From Solemya velum gill symbiont (lineage in GTDB: Bacteria > Pseudomonadota > Gammaproteobacteria > Chromatiales > Chromatiaceae), in assembly GCF_000787395.1 (NCBI RefSeq), contig NZ_JRAA01000001.1, positions 558,001-622,000 on the forward strand: 64,000 nt of DNA, written 5' to 3'. Of the stretch, positions 225 through 6,696 are shown piece by piece (the stretch's first letter is position 1; the number at the start of each line of letters is the position of its first letter). Below the pieces are notes generated by a model. That model ran no database searches and had not been told where the DNA came from. It saw only the letters and a program-made list of their open reading frames with translations. Position numbers and translations under genes: made by a program.

Positions 225-1117
225 AACAATCACTGGATGGCATGACAATCGGTTTCATCGGTCTTGGACTAATGGGCAAGCCCATGTGTGCCAACTTGCA
301 CAGTGCAGGTGCAAATCTCGTTGTTCACAACCGCACTCATGCGGTGGCTGAAGCAATGCAACAGGATGGCATCAAGGCGGTGACCACTCCGGTACAGGTT
401 GCAGAACTATGCGATCTGGTCATCATCATGACCCCGGACACAACCTCGGTCGAAAACGTACTTTTCGGTGAACAGGGACTGTCAAAGGTTCTTCATTCGC
501 GCTCCCTGGTCATCGACATGGGAACCACGGCAGTGACACCCACACGCGTATTCGCCTCCCGACTGGCAGAATGCGGCGCCGAATACATCGACGCGCCTGT
601 GTCAGGTGGTGAGATCGGTGCGATCGATGGTGACCTGGTCATCATGGCCGGTGGTTCAAAAGGCGCAATTCACAGGGCACAGCCCGTATTCGACGTACTG
701 GGTAAATCGACAGTTCATATTGGTGAAGTTGGAACCGGGCAAGTCACCAAGGCAGCCAACCAGGTGATTGTCGGTCTCAATATCGGTGCTGTCGCAGAAG
801 CATTCACCCTCGCCAGTGGCGCCGGAGCCGATCTTAACAAGGTACGTGAAGCACTCATGGGTGGATTTGCCTCCTCGAGAATTCTGGAGGTACACGGTCA
901 GCGAATGATCGATGAGAGTTTCGCTCCCGGGGGCAAGATCACTACACAGTACAAGGATCTGTCACAGGCGATTGACCTTGCAGCTGAGTTCTCTCAGCAG
1001 TTGCCGGCAACCGAATTGAACAAGTCGTTTTATGGAGAATTGATTGATGCAGGTAAAGGTGGACTTGATCACAGTGCACTGATCCTGGCGCTAGAAACAC
1101 ATCAAGTCGAAAAATAA
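221..1117 (+). CDS. NAD-binding 2-hydroxy-3-oxopropionate (tartronate semialdehyde) reductase / 3-hydroxyisobutyrate dehydrogenase family
   Basis: This is a 298-residue beta-hydroxyacid dehydrogenase. The N-terminal Rossmann motif is GFIGLGLMGKPM, the substrate-binding signature is DAPVSGGEIGA, and the catalytic lysine sits in GQVTKAANQ. The family reduces tartronate semialdehyde to glycerate or oxidises 3-hydroxyisobutyrate. The GlcG-like gene directly upstream favours the glyoxylate/glycerate role, but this is inference. I chose ATG 221 because it overlaps the preceding TGA, as in translational coupling. An in-frame ATG at 182 would overlap the upstream gene by 43 bases, and ATG 242 is also possible. 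The length is normal for the family. Confidence 0.85.
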   Translation: MKQSLDGMTIGFIGLGLMGKPMCANLHSAGANLVVHNRTHAVAEAMQQDGIKAVTTPVQVAELCDLVIIMTPDTTSVENVLFGEQGLSKVLHSRSLVIDMGTTAVTPTRVFASRLAECGAEYIDAPVSGGEIGAIDGDLVIMAGGSKGAIHRAQPVFDVLGKSTVHIGEVGTGQVTKAANQVIVGLNIGAVAEAFTLASGAGADLNKVREALMGGFASSRILEVHGQRMIDESFAPGGKITTQYKDLSQAIDLAAEFSQQLPATELNKSFYGELIDAGKGGLDHSALILALETHQVEK

Positions 1118-1149
1118 CCGGGATGGCGAATTCGTATTCGTCACCCCGG
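1118..1149. terminator. Hairpin between convergent genes
   Basis: A 14-bp stem (1118-1131 with 1136-1149) has one mismatch, one G-U pair and a TCGT loop. It starts directly after the reductase stop codon. There is no T-run on either side, so it may be a weak or Rho-assisted bidirectional terminator, or a 3'-end-protecting hairpin, between this gene and the minus-strand lipoprotein gene. Confidence 0.5.
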
Positions 1150-1189
1150 CATATATCCTGTTCTGAAACTCAAGGCCTATATGGCGCCC

Positions 1190-1657
1190 TTAGAACTTCT
1201 TGTATAAACATGGTGAGCAGAGTTTCTTTCCTGACTCGAACTTCTTGTAGGAGACAACCTTTTTATGTTGTCCATCTTTCTTCACTACAAACTTGTAATA
1301 CCTGCCACCAATTTTGGCAATAGCGCGACACTGCTCTTTGCCGCCTTCCATTTTAAGACAGATACGGCCACTACCATCTCTCTTTTTAGTGACTCTCCAA
1401 AAGCCTTTCCGCGTCTTGCCATTTCTTAGCTGCGTGACCTCCCCTTTGCTGGAATGGTAGTAGGTCTTGCTTTCAGTTCCGCTACTGTTGATTGAGGTCA
1501 CTGTTCTCTTGGTAAACAGCTGTTTCAACTGACTTGCAGTCAACCAATTATAATCACCTGACCCGGTGTCACTCTCCTTTACATCACTCACCTGAACACA
1601 CCCGCTCATGGTAAGTAACATGCTTACAATAAAGACGAATATTGCACTCTTTTTCAT
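1190..1657 (-). CDS. Small lipoprotein of unknown function
   Basis: The 155-residue protein has a lipoprotein signal peptide: MKKSAIFVF, a hydrophobic stretch, then lipobox MSGC with Cys20. The mature part is basic and Tyr/Lys-rich. It has the order LTASQLKQLF, then GFWRVTKKRDGSGRICLK, then EQCRAIAKIGG, then YYKFVVKKDG. This resembles the compact beta-rich domain of small exported proteins with W...G..C...C spacing, but I cannot name the family. The start ATG overlaps the hydrolase stop (TAATG) and has AAAGGA upstream. It is the last gene of a four-gene coupled operon, so its product probably works in the envelope alongside the ABC transporter and hydrolase. Confidence 0.75.
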   Translation of the reverse strand: MKKSAIFVFIVSMLLTMSGCVQVSDVKESDTGSGDYNWLTASQLKQLFTKRTVTSINSSGTESKTYYHSSKGEVTQLRNGKTRKGFWRVTKKRDGSGRICLKMEGGKEQCRAIAKIGGRYYKFVVKKDGQHKKVVSYKKFESGKKLCSPCLYKKF

Positions 1658-2556
1658 TACTCTGTTTCCTTTGGTTTTCTAAACAAAAACTCTTCAATTA
1701 AATGATCAACTGAATAGCGCCTGACATTATCAATAAAATTGTGTCCTGCATCCGCAATAACCTCGTGCTCAAGCAGGATCGGCTGATTGATTTCATCTGC
1801 AGACGCACGTATCTCCTTTTCCCAGTTATACGCACGTTCAAGTCGAGTCATGCCCTGTCGACGGTCAATTCTGGCAGTTTTGTTTAAACCGGCATCACGG
1901 TATATATCATCACCACCAGAAAGCAGAAGTGTCGGGATAGAAAGCGTTTCATTGAAACGAAACTTCAGGTTTGTATCAATCAACTTTTGCCCCAGCCCAT
2001 AAGGGTAACTGTACTTTTCGTCCGGCATAGTGAACCAGCCAGGCGCAGCGAGCACCAAACGCTCTACACGCTGAGGGTAGAAAAGTGCATAACGTTGCGA
2101 GAATTGTGCTCCACCAGAGAATCCGAACAGGTGGATTCTGGATGTATCTACGCCGTATTCATCCTGAACATTTTTCAGGATATCATTCAGTGCATTATCC
2201 GAGCGCTTTGCCACTGAAGTTTTTGCGAGACCCGGACGTTGATACCCATTGAATTTAACATCATCAAACAGGGGCGCAATCAATATTGCCTTGCCAGAGC
2301 TTGCCAATCCGGAAAAAATTGATGCGTATTCCCGAGCGTGACGTGAAATGCCGTGAACCACGACAACAACGGGAGTGTTCCTGTCTATGGTGTCTGGCAA
2401 CACCTCAAAGTAGCGGACTTCGGGACGATGATCGAGTTGACAAAACCTGGGAGCAACTGCCGCCACGCTTTTATTGTGTCCTTTAGCAATAACAGCACGG
2501 GATAATTGATTTGGTAATTCCCTGGCTGCCGGGTGAAGCACTTGATAAGTACGCAT
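1657..2556 (-). CDS. Alpha/beta hydrolase (esterase / depolymerase-like)
   Basis: The 299-residue protein has an alpha/beta-hydrolase fold. It shows the oxyanion strand VVVVHGISRHARE, the nucleophile elbow LFGFSGGAQF (Ser in GFSGG) and the catalytic His in DAGHNFIDN. An acid is likely in the LLLSGGDDIYRD region. No signal peptide is seen. The start is ATG 2556, with AGGAG seven bases upstream; that AGGAG lies inside the last codons of the ABC gene, only four bases away. Longer in-frame starts would overlap that gene. The substrate is unknown. The fold resembles PHB-depolymerase and dienelactone-hydrolase-like enzymes, and the operon suggests it processes whatever the transporter moves. Confidence 0.8.
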   Translation of the reverse strand: MRTYQVLHPAARELPNQLSRAVIAKGHNKSVAAVAPRFCQLDHRPEVRYFEVLPDTIDRNTPVVVVVHGISRHAREYASIFSGLASSGKAILIAPLFDDVKFNGYQRPGLAKTSVAKRSDNALNDILKNVQDEYGVDTSRIHLFGFSGGAQFSQRYALFYPQRVERLVLAAPGWFTMPDEKYSYPYGLGQKLIDTNLKFRFNETLSIPTLLLSGGDDIYRDAGLNKTARIDRRQGMTRLERAYNWEKEIRASADEINQPILLEHEVIADAGHNFIDNVRRYSVDHLIEEFLFRKPKETE

Positions 2557-2560
2557 ATTC

Positions 2561-4255
2561 CTACTCCTGTCCCACAGCATTTTCTTGCTTAAAAAACTGA
2601 TGCATATCATCAAACTCCTTCATAAAGGTTTCCGGATTTTCACTGATGATGATTTCACCATCTGCAATTAACCAGATCTCATCTGAATTGCATGCCATTG
2701 CTTCATTATGTGTTGCCTGGATAATTGTTCCTTTATAACTGGCCAGGAGAGCCTCCAGGTCACGTGTAAAAACCGGATCGAGATTAGATTCAATTTCATC
2801 CAGAAGGAGAAGCACAGGTGAACCCAGCAGAGCACGGGCAAGTGCCACTCTCCTCCTCTCTCCGAGAGAAAGATTCAGCCCTTCACGTGTAAGGCGTGTT
2901 TTCTTACCATCGGGCAGCGATTCAACAAGACTATCCAGACCGCATTGCGACAGGATCGCATCAACCTCTTCTGAACTTGCCCCAGGATGGCGATAGCGCA
3001 AATTTTTATCCAGGCTTCCTTGCATCAATGGCAACAGGTCACTAACGATACCTATCGACTGTCGGGCCGTTGATGCTTTGAGGCGCTGCACATTTGTGCC
3101 ATCCAGGCTAATAACGCCACCCGGTGACTGCCTGAGTCCGGCAATTGTCATCAGTAACGTCGACTTTCCTGCCCCATTCAGGCCAATCAATGCGATTCGC
3201 TTGCCCGGTTCTATTTCTGCATTGACAGGAACTGTCTCCCGAAAAAGAGAGAGATTTTTGAATGATACGTTTCCCTTCACAGATTCTATTTTTCTGTTTC
3301 GGGAATGCTTCTCTTTGCCAGCACCCTGGTTGAAACGCATAAGGTTGTTTCTGGAAACCAGCATATTCAACCAATACTCGTAAACACGCCCCAGGTCACG
3401 TAATGGTGTGGCGAGTAAACCAATCAGAGTCATCAAGGCAACAATTGTACCGGCGCTGACAGTTGTTCCTGATGTGTAGATGACGACCGCAAGTACAGCG
3501 GTACCTGCCCACATCGCTGTCAGTTCGGTTCCTGCACGCATCCCCCTCGCTAATACACTCTTCTGAAACAGTGCATTTTTCAGATCAAAGGATAATTTAC
3601 TGTGCCTGTCAGTCTCACGGCGAGCACGTCCGAAAAATGCGACCACAACCGGATGGGTTATTTTCTCGGTCAGATTGCTGATCATTTTCGAACGTCGTTG
3701 TCGAGCGTACTTGACTGCTTTCAACGTTGGTTTGCTCAACAAGATGTTAAACAGGATGCCGCAGACCATGACGAGCAACGCGGCTAATGCCGCCTCAACA
3801 GAATAGATTGACAGCGCTATAAGTGAGAACGTCAGTACGACAGAGCTGACAATTGCCCCGGAAAGCCCCAGGCTCACCCAACGTCTCAGCGCCGAGAGGT
3901 CACCAGTAAATGGCAGAAGCATCCTACCTGTAGAAGCCTGTTTTGAAATTCTGTTTTTTGATTTCAACAGGCTTTCAAAAAGCTCTACACGAACATCATG
4001 AACATAGCTCTGGCCAATATTCTCGGCTAGAAGTCGCCCGGCAAAACGCAGTCCGACCAGTGCTAGTGAACTTGCAAGGAGACCCGCAAACATGAGGGGA
4101 AGCTGATTGCCGGCAGAGGGTGCCCTGGCAATGTCGATAACTGACCTGACTAGCAACGCAGTACAAACCAGGGCAATAACCTGAAGCAGCCCGGAGAGAA
4201 TGAGCAATATCAGGTAGAACTTGCGCTTCTGGATATAAACTGCAGGAAGCGACAT
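2561..4255 (-). CDS. ABC transporter with fused permease and ATPase domains
   Basis: The 564-residue half-transporter has about six membrane segments in residues 1-310 and an ATPase domain in 325-545. Visible motifs are Walker A GLNGAGKS (358-365), signature LSLGE (462-466), Walker B LLLLLDE (481-487) and an H-loop His in QATHNEA. The Q-loop position reads IVSDLLPL, so the usual Gln is Asp, which is uncommon. Such half-transporters act as homodimeric exporters. The start overlaps the P-loop gene stop as TAATG, so translation is coupled. The substrate is not known; the operon partners are a P-loop ATPase-like protein, a hydrolase and a lipoprotein. Confidence 0.88.
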   Translation of the reverse strand: MSLPAVYIQKRKFYLILLILSGLLQVIALVCTALLVRSVIDIARAPSAGNQLPLMFAGLLASSLALVGLRFAGRLLAENIGQSYVHDVRVELFESLLKSKNRISKQASTGRMLLPFTGDLSALRRWVSLGLSGAIVSSVVLTFSLIALSIYSVEAALAALLVMVCGILFNILLSKPTLKAVKYARQRRSKMISNLTEKITHPVVVAFFGRARRETDRHSKLSFDLKNALFQKSVLARGMRAGTELTAMWAGTAVLAVVIYTSGTTVSAGTIVALMTLIGLLATPLRDLGRVYEYWLNMLVSRNNLMRFNQGAGKEKHSRNRKIESVKGNVSFKNLSLFRETVPVNAEIEPGKRIALIGLNGAGKSTLLMTIAGLRQSPGGVISLDGTNVQRLKASTARQSIGIVSDLLPLMQGSLDKNLRYRHPGASSEEVDAILSQCGLDSLVESLPDGKKTRLTREGLNLSLGERRRVALARALLGSPVLLLLDEIESNLDPVFTRDLEALLASYKGTIIQATHNEAMACNSDEIWLIADGEIIISENPETFMKEFDDMHQFFKQENAVGQE

Positions 4256-5379
4256 TAGTCAGGGAATGGAGCGTTAACGAAATTGCCTTCCTGGCAACGT
4301 TTCAGGTCGCGCATAAATATTGCAGAGTGCAAATCAGAAGTGCAGTAAACCGGAACAGTTGATTGTGACTGTATCTCGTCAATCAGCATAGATGAGATTG
4401 TAAACTGCCCTCCTATGCCTATCAGTGACAATCCACACTGATGCAGCCTGCGAATACCTGTCACAGCTCCTGAACTGTCGCCTGCCGCAAATAAAAAACC
4501 GTCCACTACTCCTCTCAGGACCGTACCCTTCATAAGAATTGATGCCTCATTCTGAAAAACGCCGTCGGCCAATTCGACAACAATAACATCTGGTTGACTC
4601 GCCTCTGCTGTAGCAACCAATCCTTGTATAATCGATTCCAGTTCATTCTCGTTACATAAATAGGTCGAGATGAATCCCGCATCAGTGAAGTCGTATACGG
4701 GCCAGGCACCGGCATCAAGCATTTTCCAGAGATCACCGCCAGATGCCGTGCCCGTGAGCTTTAACGCAGCAACTTTCAGTCCCGCTTTTTTTAAACCAAA
4801 AATAGCAGCAGCTGCCATGGAGGTTTTCCCTGCATTCATCGCTGATCCTACAACACCCAGGACCAGTGGTTTTACAGCTGCTTGTTCCTTGTTACCTGCT
4901 TTTTTGGTGATAATGTTCTGATTCAGATTAAGACGCTTTTTTGAAGCATCTGCCAGTATGCCAATTGGCGCTATGGCTGTCGCATTTTTGACTCTCTGGC
5001 TTTTCCTGATCATTAGTGAAGCAACACCGCCTGCTGCCACCATATGACAATCACAGAGGTTGTCTGGTACATGGCCTTCGAACTGATCAGGCGCATAACG
5101 ATTGCCGTAACACAAGATAACCTGATCTGAAGGAAAGAGATGTGCACGCCGACCATTTGCCAGCTCTATCCTGGCATGCTGTCCGATGCGTTTTATCGTT
5201 GCAAGAACCAGGTCGCCGGGTTGTGGTTGCACCTCCCCGGCTATAAGGTACTTTGCCCTGGAGAGATCTACATTGCGAGTTGAAAATGCCGCCTTTGCAC
5301 TCTCGATCTGCTCATTTGGCAAATCCAGAAATTGTACGCCAGCGGTATTTATATCCGGATTAATTGGGCCTGCATTCAT
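4255..5379 (-). CDS. P-loop NTPase-like protein with MobB/DUF1611-type nucleotide-binding domain, function unknown
   Basis: The 374-residue protein has an N-terminal region with NGRRAHLFPSDQ and CYGNRYAPDQFEGHVPD. A Cys-rich spot, NLCDCHMVAAGG, follows. The C-terminal P-loop domain has Walker A GSAMNAGKTS (about 178-187) and later ALKLTGTASGGDLW, FTDAGFISTY and VVELADGVFQNE. The P-loop form resembles dethiobiotin synthetase, MobB and DUF1611 proteins. The first reading-frame start is TTG at 5415, but that triplet is the -35 box of a promoter, so I take ATG 5379. Translation could then be almost leaderless. It is the first gene of the coupled operon and could be a ligase or kinase-type enzyme supplying the exporter. 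This is inference. Confidence 0.72.
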   Translation of the reverse strand: MNAGPINPDINTAGVQFLDLPNEQIESAKAAFSTRNVDLSRAKYLIAGEVQPQPGDLVLATIKRIGQHARIELANGRRAHLFPSDQVILCYGNRYAPDQFEGHVPDNLCDCHMVAAGGVASLMIRKSQRVKNATAIAPIGILADASKKRLNLNQNIITKKAGNKEQAAVKPLVLGVVGSAMNAGKTSMAAAAIFGLKKAGLKVAALKLTGTASGGDLWKMLDAGAWPVYDFTDAGFISTYLCNENELESIIQGLVATAEASQPDVIVVELADGVFQNEASILMKGTVLRGVVDGFLFAAGDSSGAVTGIRRLHQCGLSLIGIGGQFTISSMLIDEIQSQSTVPVYCTSDLHSAIFMRDLKRCQEGNFVNAPFPD

Positions 5380-5381
5380 GA

Positions 5382-5401
5382 TTGGGAATTTATTCCCAAT
5401 A
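5382..5401. promoter_or_regulatory. 20-bp palindrome overlapping the -10 box: candidate operator
   Basis: ATTGGGAA and TTCCCAAT form perfect 8-bp arms around four A/T bases. The palindrome covers the -10 element and ends two bases before ATG 5379. A repressor bound here would block RNA polymerase. The cognate regulator is not visible nearby. Confidence 0.5.
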
Positions 5402-5415
5402 TTATCGAATGTCAA
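5387..5415 (-). promoter_or_regulatory. Sigma-70-type promoter of the P-loop/ABC/hydrolase/lipoprotein operon
   Basis: On the minus strand TTGACA (5415-5410) is followed by a 17-base spacer and TAAATT (5392-5387). Transcription would start near 5380, almost at ATG 5379. The -10 box sits in the centre of the palindrome 5382-5401. Confidence 0.6.
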
Positions 5416-5469
5416 GCAAGATTCATGCTTATTCTTATTGATTATAGTGATTACCCTGTCGCAGGCACG

Positions 5470-6696
5470 TTATGAATCAGGTTTTGAGTCTTTCTTTACC
5501 AGTGACCCGACCGTAAGCCCTTGAACAAAATAGAAAACACCACGATCAGGTAGGTAACTGCGATCAGCATGTCACGCTCGGGCACATTTGGAATCGACAG
5601 TGCCAGTGCAACCGATATGCCACCACGAAGCCCGCCCCACGTCAATATTCTGATCGCATGCGGGGTGAACTTGCGAAATGGCTTCATCAGCGTCACCGGT
5701 ACACCGACTGCAACAAAACGTGCCAGCACAACGACCGGTATCAGGATCATGCCAGCCTGGATAAAGGAGATTTCGAAATGCACCAGCATCAGCTCGAGGC
5801 CGATCAACACGAACAGAACGGCATTAAGAATCTCGTCGATGAGTTCCCAGAAGTTGTCCAGGTGTTCGCGTGTACGCTCTGACATCGCCAGCCTGCGCCC
5901 GTGGTTACCGATCAGGAGACCGGCAACAACGATAGCAATTGGTGCCGACAGGTGCATAGCGATAGCAGCTGCATAGCCACCCAGTACAACGGCGAGGCTG
6001 ATCAATAGACGACAGCATACGATAGGCAACAAAGCCGATGACAAATCCAAACAGGGCTCCACCGACCGCCTCCTGCAGAAACAGCCGTGCGATCGCCATC
6101 GGTTCAGCGTCATGTCCGCCTGCCCCATCCGTGGCAATCGTGAGTATCGCAAGAAACACCACCACGGCGACTCCATCGTTAAAGAGGGATTCACCGGTAA
6201 TTTTTGTTTCAAGTGTCTTCGGCACCCCGACTTTCTTCAGAATACCGAGAACGGCAATCGGGTCAGTCGGTGAGATCAGCGCACCGAATAACAGACAATA
6301 GATCAGGGAAATCTCCACACCCAACATGCCGAAAACATAATAGCTTGCATAGCCAATCAGCAAGGTTGATGTGACGACACCCACGCTGGCCAGCAGTGCA
6401 ATAACCCACTTCTGTTCCAGCAGGTCATCGAGATTGACATGCAGCGCGCCAGCAAACAGCAATGCGCTGAGCATTCCTTCCAGCAACGCCTTGTCGAAAT
6501 CGATACTGGCGAGAATCGTTTCGGCATGCAGTTCAAAATCGAATCCCAAGCGCGTAGAAAGAATCAGCAGCAGTGAAAAAAGCAGCGCAATCACCATCAA
6601 GCCGATTGTTGTCGGCAACTTGATGAAGCGGTGATTGATATAACTGAAGAGTGCAGACAGCGTGATGAGTATCGCGCTTAACTCAAATATTCCCAT
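5470..6696 (-). pseudogene. CPA1-family Na+/H+ antiporter, disrupted by two frameshifts
   Basis: Three reading-frame pieces together give a nearly complete CPA1 (NhaP-type) antiporter. Piece one (6696 to about 6012) has the core motifs SPTDPIAVLG and GESLFNDGVAVVVF. Piece two (about 6010 to 5522) resumes at LISLAVVLGGY and includes LTWGGLRGGISVAL. Piece three (about 5520 to 5470) gives the expected C-terminus QGLTVGSLVKKDSKPDS. At the first break ATTGATC joins two frames and about six expected residues are missing, which suggests a deletion between short TTGAT repeats. The second break is at TTTTGTTC near 5521, where one base appears lost. Either the gene is dead or the assembly carries errors. 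Confidence 0.82.

Follow-up and report, generated by a model that had tools for sequence, protein, structure and literature searches.

The genome of the Solemya velum gill symbiont (2.7 Mb) carries, between positions 1190 and 5415 of the stretch that was analysed (64,000 nucleotides, positions 558001-622000 of contig NZ_JRAA01000001.1; hereafter the window), four genes on the minus strand that form one tight operon and encode a P-loop protein (P0001), an ATP-binding cassette (ABC) half-exporter (P0002), an alpha/beta hydrolase (P0003) and a small lipoprotein (P0004). By comparing this operon, its promoter and its genome context with those found in other genomes, we arrive with moderate confidence at an explanation in which a conserved module, which probably modifies and exports a small compound, is under the control of a DUF6502-family transcription factor. 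The regulatory part of the explanation, i.e. a conserved operator with DUF6502 as its likely regulator, is put forward with considerable assurance on the basis of sequence comparison; the biochemical part is tentative, and we place it a shade below evenly balanced. DUF6502, a family that has no function in Pfam and for which our literature search found no paper, gains a testable role in this way, namely that of an autoregulated transcription factor, together with an operator and a target operon. In addition, a conserved enzyme-exporter-hydrolase module is defined, and the P-loop family becomes linked to what may be a different first step in arginine synthesis.

In order of transcription, the genes lie at 4255-5379 (P0001, 374 amino acids; ATG at 5379, stop at 4255), 2561-4255 (P0002, 564 amino acids; ATG at 4255), 1657-2556 (P0003, 299 amino acids) and 1190-1657 (P0004, 155 amino acids). 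The junctions reported in a first-pass annotation of this DNA are all in the sequence: P0001 and P0002 overlap in TAATG with one base in common, a 4-base gap separates the end of P0002 (2561) from the start of P0003 (2556), and P0003 and P0004 are again joined by TAATG, the end of the one and the start of the other both being at 1657. Ahead of the operon, on the same strand, inspection of the sequence and a promoter scan place a -35 box TTGACA at 5410-5415 and, after a 17-bp spacer, a -10 box TAAATT at 5387-5392. With 10 of 12 consensus matches this is the best sigma-70-like promoter in the region 1050-5600, and its -10 box lies within the palindrome ATTGGGAATAAATTCCCAAT (5381-5400), which was recognised by an inverted-repeat scan and by its recurrence elsewhere. 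The transcript start predicted from the -10 box, at about 5380, adjoins the ATG of P0001, and the core of the putative operator, TGGGAATAAATTCCCA (5383-5398), ends 3 nt ahead of that ATG. A TTG at 5415 is formally usable as the start of P0001 and would place the start codon within the -35 box. Of the promoter as first annotated, the TTGACA and the -10 box inside a palindrome stand; the palindrome is no perfect 20-mer but a pair of perfect 9-bp arms around a 2-bp centre, i.e. 18 symmetrical positions out of 20.

A palindrome alone is not rare in this DNA, in which 7 inverted repeats of this class are listed in 64 kb (at 4 distinct places) versus 1-4 in each of ten simulated sequences; what exceeds chance is where it lies and that it recurs at homologous promoters. 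Exact copies of the core TGGGAANNNNTTCCCA number four in the genome, one of them in the window promoter, as against about 0.16 expected (2.7 Mb / 4^12). At the DUF6502 gene of the same genome the -10 box is overlain by a site that has one mismatch, and the promoter of this gene (TTGACT-17-TATTTT-CCCACTT-ATG) equals that of the window (TTGACA-17-TAAATT-CCCAATC-ATG) in layout. In a bacterium from another family (locus L019) the 20 bp of the window palindrome stand unchanged at the P-loop operon, together with a TTGACA at 17 bp; a DUF6502 gene, which adjoins the operon there as it does in L055, lies together with a DUF5666 gene just upstream. The identical core is also found near the P-loop operons of L055, L056 and L053, and a scan of 28 P-loop loci yielded an exact site in 5, a site with one mismatch in 1 and a site with two mismatches in 1. 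The palindrome is predicted to be a conserved operator, and the proposal that such an operator sits on the -10 box is borne out both at the P-loop operon of L019 and at DUF6502 genes.

The association between this operator and DUF6502 genes was counted in two sets. The first comprised 31 loci (30 and the symbiont's own gene, all located by tblastn), including those from which the motif was originally recognised; upstream of the gene, the best match shows no more than one mismatch in 14 and no more than two in 19 of them, as against 6 and 11, respectively, of 939 windows elsewhere in the same loci. In the second, a held-out set of 40 further DUF6502 genes, taken mostly in score order with some fragments and frame-broken genes skipped, the corresponding counts are 20 and 27, whereas the reversed pattern gave 0 of 40 at up to two mismatches and shuffled patterns gave 0.15% and 0.75% at up to one and up to two. 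Overall, 46 of 71 DUF6502 genes carry a site with at most two mismatches. The start codon follows 1-6 nt after the site in 25 of these 46 (24 ATG, 1 TTG), and in 19 of the 25 a TTGA precedes the site by 16-17 bp; the equal spacing in these 25 genes speaks for the nearly leaderless first gene that had been proposed for the window. To judge from the sequences, the operator TGGGAN6TCCCA together with often nearly leaderless promoters looks like a typical feature of DUF6502 genes (L097:8301-9140 and 70 more). Exact sites number 21, in 13 of 24 genomes that were picked partly for carrying a P-loop or DUF6502 gene, and a control pattern has none. By position and open reading frames (ORFs), 11 of the 21 precede P-loop, DUF6502 or DUF5666 genes; the remaining ones lie within coding sequence or near other genes, in a check that left out G331:C7:1273170 and the second site of G123.

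The association extends to the occurrence of the genes themselves. DUF6502 is present in 99 of 369 sampled genomes of the class, namely in 11 of the 18 that possess a close P-loop relative (E below 1e-40) versus 88 of the 351 others (p = 0.0018). Of those 11 DUF6502-bearing genomes, 7 have a site (two mismatches at the most) no further than 600 bp from the P-loop gene, and of the 7 without DUF6502 none has (probability about 0.01, calculated by hand; 465 bp were readable in L061). In the symbiont, the DUF6502 gene is followed by two DUF5666-like genes, one of which was scanned.

The symbiont's DUF6502 protein is a member of its family (PF20112) at 230 bits against a Pfam cut-off of 27. The family alignment contains a near-invariant stretch with the consensus S-R-I-x-x-L-T-G-L-x-R-K-E-V, which we read as being of the helix-turn-helix type, and the structure model (predicted local distance difference test, pLDDT, 82; predicted template modelling score, pTM, 0.63) aligns with DNA-binding domains at this stretch. 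DUF6502 is likely an autoregulated transcription factor: it would bind the palindrome TTGGGAATAAATTCCCAA over the -10 box of the operon promoter and would, besides this promoter, govern DUF5666 lipoprotein genes and the gene that encodes it. Given that the site lies over the -10 box and stops 3 nt short of the start codon, the simplest effect of the bound regulator would be repression; its release would give rise to a nearly leaderless mRNA.

The first-pass annotation had made its coupled operon depend on the same genes being found together in other genomes, and this is indeed the case. Relatives of P0001 are present in 9 of 92 related genomes, in 28 of 369 genomes of the class and in 8 of 398 genomes of the phylum (the own genome counted each time), and a scan of genome contigs for P0001 gave a single locus. 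Gene order was counted over 30 other loci with a close P-loop relative (L056 and L065 share one genome), leaving out the distant relatives (L016, L024, L025, L070-L078, L088 and L089) and the broken L017. In 26 of the 30 loci the ABC gene is the next gene downstream of the P-loop gene, the four exceptions being L012 (divergent), L020 (contig end), L065 (separated) and L069 (none). A hydrolase homologue lies within the cluster in 19 loci and a Porin_O_P gene in 10; the lipoprotein is found in two (L018 and L086), and furthermore in L026, another contig of the genome to which L020 belongs. The exact four-gene order of the window recurs in one locus, L086, in agreement with a single coupled operon. 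The lipoprotein is an occasional fourth gene and the Porin_O_P gene a commoner one, which the first-pass annotation overlooked, as it did the operator common to DUF6502 and DUF5666 genes. Alphaproteobacterial plasmids have the hydrolase gene first, then the P-loop gene and then the ABC gene. Some loci show peculiarities of the P-loop gene itself: a response-regulator receiver domain (L021:7572-9107) and a hydrolase (L011:8961-10991) are each in frame with the P-loop protein within one ORF, which suggests possible fusions, and on a Microvirga plasmid (L012:7950-9713) the relative of P0001 is annotated as 'transposase' because its frame continues into the remnant of a Mutator-type transposase.

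With regard to the P-loop protein, library scans of Pfam and NCBIfam assign P0001 to no family at cut-off. Its sole Pfam match is MobB (PF03205; 20.7 bits, cut-off 26.6), and with TIGR00176 (MobB) it scores 23.4 against a cut-off of 76.2 bits; as these scores are under the curated cut-offs, a MobB identity with a molybdopterin role was rejected. The AlphaFold2 model (pLDDT 91, pTM 0.89) consists of a beta-rich N-terminal part and a P-loop C-terminal domain. In structural alignment, residues 168-366 superimpose on the dethiobiotin synthetase BioD (Z 17.0, root-mean-square deviation (rmsd) 3.0, 182 residues), the C-terminal part of the model aligns with CTP synthase as well, and the model matches TM0796, a DUF1611 protein (Z 16.5, 166 residues). 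As modelled, the C-terminal domain has the BioD/CTP-synthase/DUF1611 fold; the shared fold says nothing on function. Among the 28 aligned members of the P0001 family, 21 match MobB weakly and 22 match DUF1611_C weakly (E up to 0.1; best 6.1e-7), and together with the fold alignment these matches justify the earlier description of the protein as MobB/DUF1611-like.

The likeness to both known systems is partial. BioD and P0001 have the P-loop and the fold of the C-terminal part in common, but P0001 has the extra beta-rich N-terminal part, the identity over the aligned part amounts to 14-18%, and there are no biotin genes among those neighbours of P0001 relatives that were looked at. In the case of DgcN and the DUF1611 proteins (PF07755, NF041892), the likeness lies in the P-loop domain, in the weak DUF1611_C matches and the TM0796 alignment just given, and in the neighbours of distant P0001 relatives, which point to amino-acid N-acylation. 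Nevertheless, neither the DUF1611 nor the DgcN model finds P0001 itself at E up to 1, the DgcN model matches 1 of the 28 family members, and the partners of the P0001 gene are an exporter and a hydrolase.

Distant relatives of P0001 (L024 and L070-L076; genomes G073, G342, G096, G329, G174, G421, G289 and G222) belong to arginine operons, in most cases with argG on one side and argC on the other. All 8 genomes concerned lack ArgJ and have no ArgA that reaches its cut-off, while all 6 comparison genomes, the symbiont's included, have both. The relatives may represent the missing N-acylglutamate synthase and are a candidate new type of it; weak matches to the acetyltransferase end of ArgA occur in 4 of the 8 genomes, where a short GNAT synthase is possible. 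The context supports amino-acid N-acylation as the chemistry of the P-loop family, ATP-dependent ligation being possible too, and P0001 is probably an N-acyltransferase or an ATP-dependent ligase. Arginine synthesis was rejected as the role of P0001 itself because its own genome has full ArgA and ArgJ. It is quite conceivable, at somewhat less than an even chance, that P0001 belongs with the ATP-dependent ligases or carboxylases of BioD/CTP-synthase type and is no acyl-CoA N-acyltransferase, with the rest of the explanation standing as it is. Its best structural matches are dethiobiotin synthetases and CTP synthases, and the P-loop, Lys, Asp and Glu positions are invariant across the family alignment; yet DgcN, a DUF1611-type enzyme, is listed as an N-acetyltransferase (NF041892), and the arginine-operon relatives stand where an N-acylglutamate synthase is missing, a place that ATP-dependent N-acylation could fill as well.

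The second protein, P0002, passes the Pfam cut-offs for both ABC_membrane (76.6 versus 28 bits) and ABC_tran (93.3 versus 25 bits), matches by which it is assigned as an ABC half-exporter with fused membrane and ATPase domains. Walker A, signature, Walker B and H-loop are present, and with Asp in place of the Q-loop Gln the canonical set of ATPase motifs is incomplete. The replacement had been remarked upon before and is real, but it is no peculiarity of P0002, because none of the 22 readable relatives in the alignment has Gln at this position, where mostly Pro is found. CydDC, MsbA and type I secretion were rejected as identities of P0002, with scores far under the family cut-offs, and so was anti-phage defence, as the PADLOC matches are ATPase matches to P0002 alone and were judged generic. 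P0003 is an alpha/beta hydrolase by Pfam (38.8 bits, cut-off 25.8) with a Ser-Asp-His triad in the motifs GFSGGAQ, GGDD and GHN, which align in its relatives. Its closest solved relatives are LpqC and the poly(aspartic acid) hydrolase PahZ1 (E 5e-19 to 1e-14), from which it differs in that no signal peptide is evident by eye. Unlike P0003, the hydrolases at L019:14450-15343 and L055:6058-6942 (one genus) start with an apparent signal peptide, likewise by eye. P0004, which appears by eye to have a signal peptide with a Cys-containing lipobox, matched no family in the Pfam and NCBIfam scans and has homologues in L018, L026 and L086.

We envisage that the P-loop enzyme would modify an amino-acid-like or amine substrate by N-acylation or ATP-dependent ligation, that the hydrolase would trim or recycle the product and that the ABC exporter would move it to the periplasm, from which in other species a porin or a HlyD-type adaptor could provide the way out. 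These parts fit the earlier suggestion that the set could make, process and export a small molecule or peptide. A modifying enzyme, a hydrolase and an exporter together would also suit detoxification or self-resistance, in which a toxic compound is modified, hydrolysed and pumped out instead of a product being exported. The patchy spread of the P-loop module, which includes alphaproteobacterial plasmids, and the sensor kinases and extracytoplasmic function (ECF) sigma factors nearby are in line with such a role. We nevertheless consider it rather unlikely: the porins and the operator common with DUF5666 lipoprotein genes are no less in keeping with a function in the envelope or in release, and library and PADLOC scans found no known resistance family at cut-off for any of the four proteins.

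Several observations weigh against a modify-and-export operon switched by DUF6502. Histidine kinases or receivers lie beside the operon in L011, L014, L021, L059, L061, L065 and L087, and ECF sigma factors do so in other loci. DUF6502 is absent from 7 of the 18 genomes of the class in which a close P-loop relative occurs, so that other regulators must exist, and 4 DUF6502-bearing genomes have no site at a distance of up to 600 bp from the P-loop gene. In the symbiont itself, the DUF6502 gene (G000:C1:1204348-1205130) is far from the window. Nor do P-loop genes in general have the nearly leaderless form, because the site lies 185-192 bp ahead of its ATG in L019, L055 and L056 and 474 bp ahead in L053. 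With respect to the chemistry, the arginine-operon relatives are only 21-25% identical to P0001, so that what they catalyse may not carry over to it. Finally, the ABC signature is degenerate in L063, L064 and L066, relatives without hydrolase. As a separate observation on these three P-loop and ABC pairs, the H-loop is degenerate too and the ABC partner may have lost its ATPase activity.

We consider it improbable that another, unlinked regulator binds the palindrome and that its regulon simply includes the DUF6502 and DUF5666 genes as well. The binding of DUF6502 to the site is deduced from sequence and the gene is unlinked to the operon in the symbiont, where the other three exact sites lie ahead of a flavocytochrome fragment, which itself follows a DUF5666 gene, ahead of a multihaem PKD cytochrome and ahead of a GGDEF-EAL gene (as regulon members these three come from a single genome, and the explanation does not depend on them). 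What speaks against an unlinked regulator is that the site is found at most DUF6502 genes across many families, as in autoregulation, that the P-loop operons of the 7 genomes without DUF6502 have no site, and that the conserved stretch of DUF6502 resembles a helix-turn-helix and aligns with DNA-binding domains. An ordinary ABC transporter operon with a chance palindrome has a negligible probability, for common as such inverted repeats are in the window, the recurrence of operator and gene order across families already refutes it.

As for the kind of regulator that DUF6502 might be, the top Foldseek match of its model is HetR, over most of the chain and at E 4.5e-4 but with an rmsd of 13; in VIA the match is likewise loose (Z 8.4, rmsd 10.8), and a PDB search with the DUF6502 profile returned no HetR chain at E up to 10, i.e. 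no relation at the sequence level. The comparison with the domain make-up of HetR (DNA-binding, flap and hood) draws on these two alignments of a model with pTM 0.63. HetR needs GGG-N5-CCC palindromes and targets its own gene (PMC4192349). DUF6502 likewise has a palindrome at its own gene, but of the form GGG-N8-CCC, which departs from the HetR rule (PMC4192349), and HetR is a cyanobacterial regulator whereas DUF6502 belongs to another phylum. A PatS-derived peptide releases HetR from DNA, RGSGR being the PatS pentapeptide (PMC4649674). A G[ST]GR motif in the C-terminal tail of DUF6502, a part that is predicted poorly, is shared by 20 of 26 sequences as a conserved feature and calls this peptide to mind. 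The likeness to HetR, which comes from a model, is a lead only. We regard it as highly improbable that DUF6502 is a family of HetR-like factors outside the cyanobacteria, with a regulon (DUF6502, DUF5666 lipoproteins, P-loop enzyme, hydrolase, ABC exporter and porin) that would make, export and sense a small signal in the manner of HetR/PatS/HetC, without being a member of that system.

Two minor observations concern other surroundings. On a Priestia megaterium plasmid (L016, 4.7-13.4 kb) a distant relative of P0001 is found amid genes for a phosphoenolpyruvate (PEP) mutase, two ATP-grasp proteins, an ornithine transcarbamylase (OTC)-like protein and an M20 peptidase, a cluster that by its gene content looks like phosphonate-like biosynthesis. 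In the window, a Na+/H+ antiporter-like gene lies upstream of the operon on the minus strand (5470-6696); by eye it apparently has two frame breaks, with two overlapping ORFs and an out-of-frame C-terminal end, which suggests a pseudogene or assembly errors.

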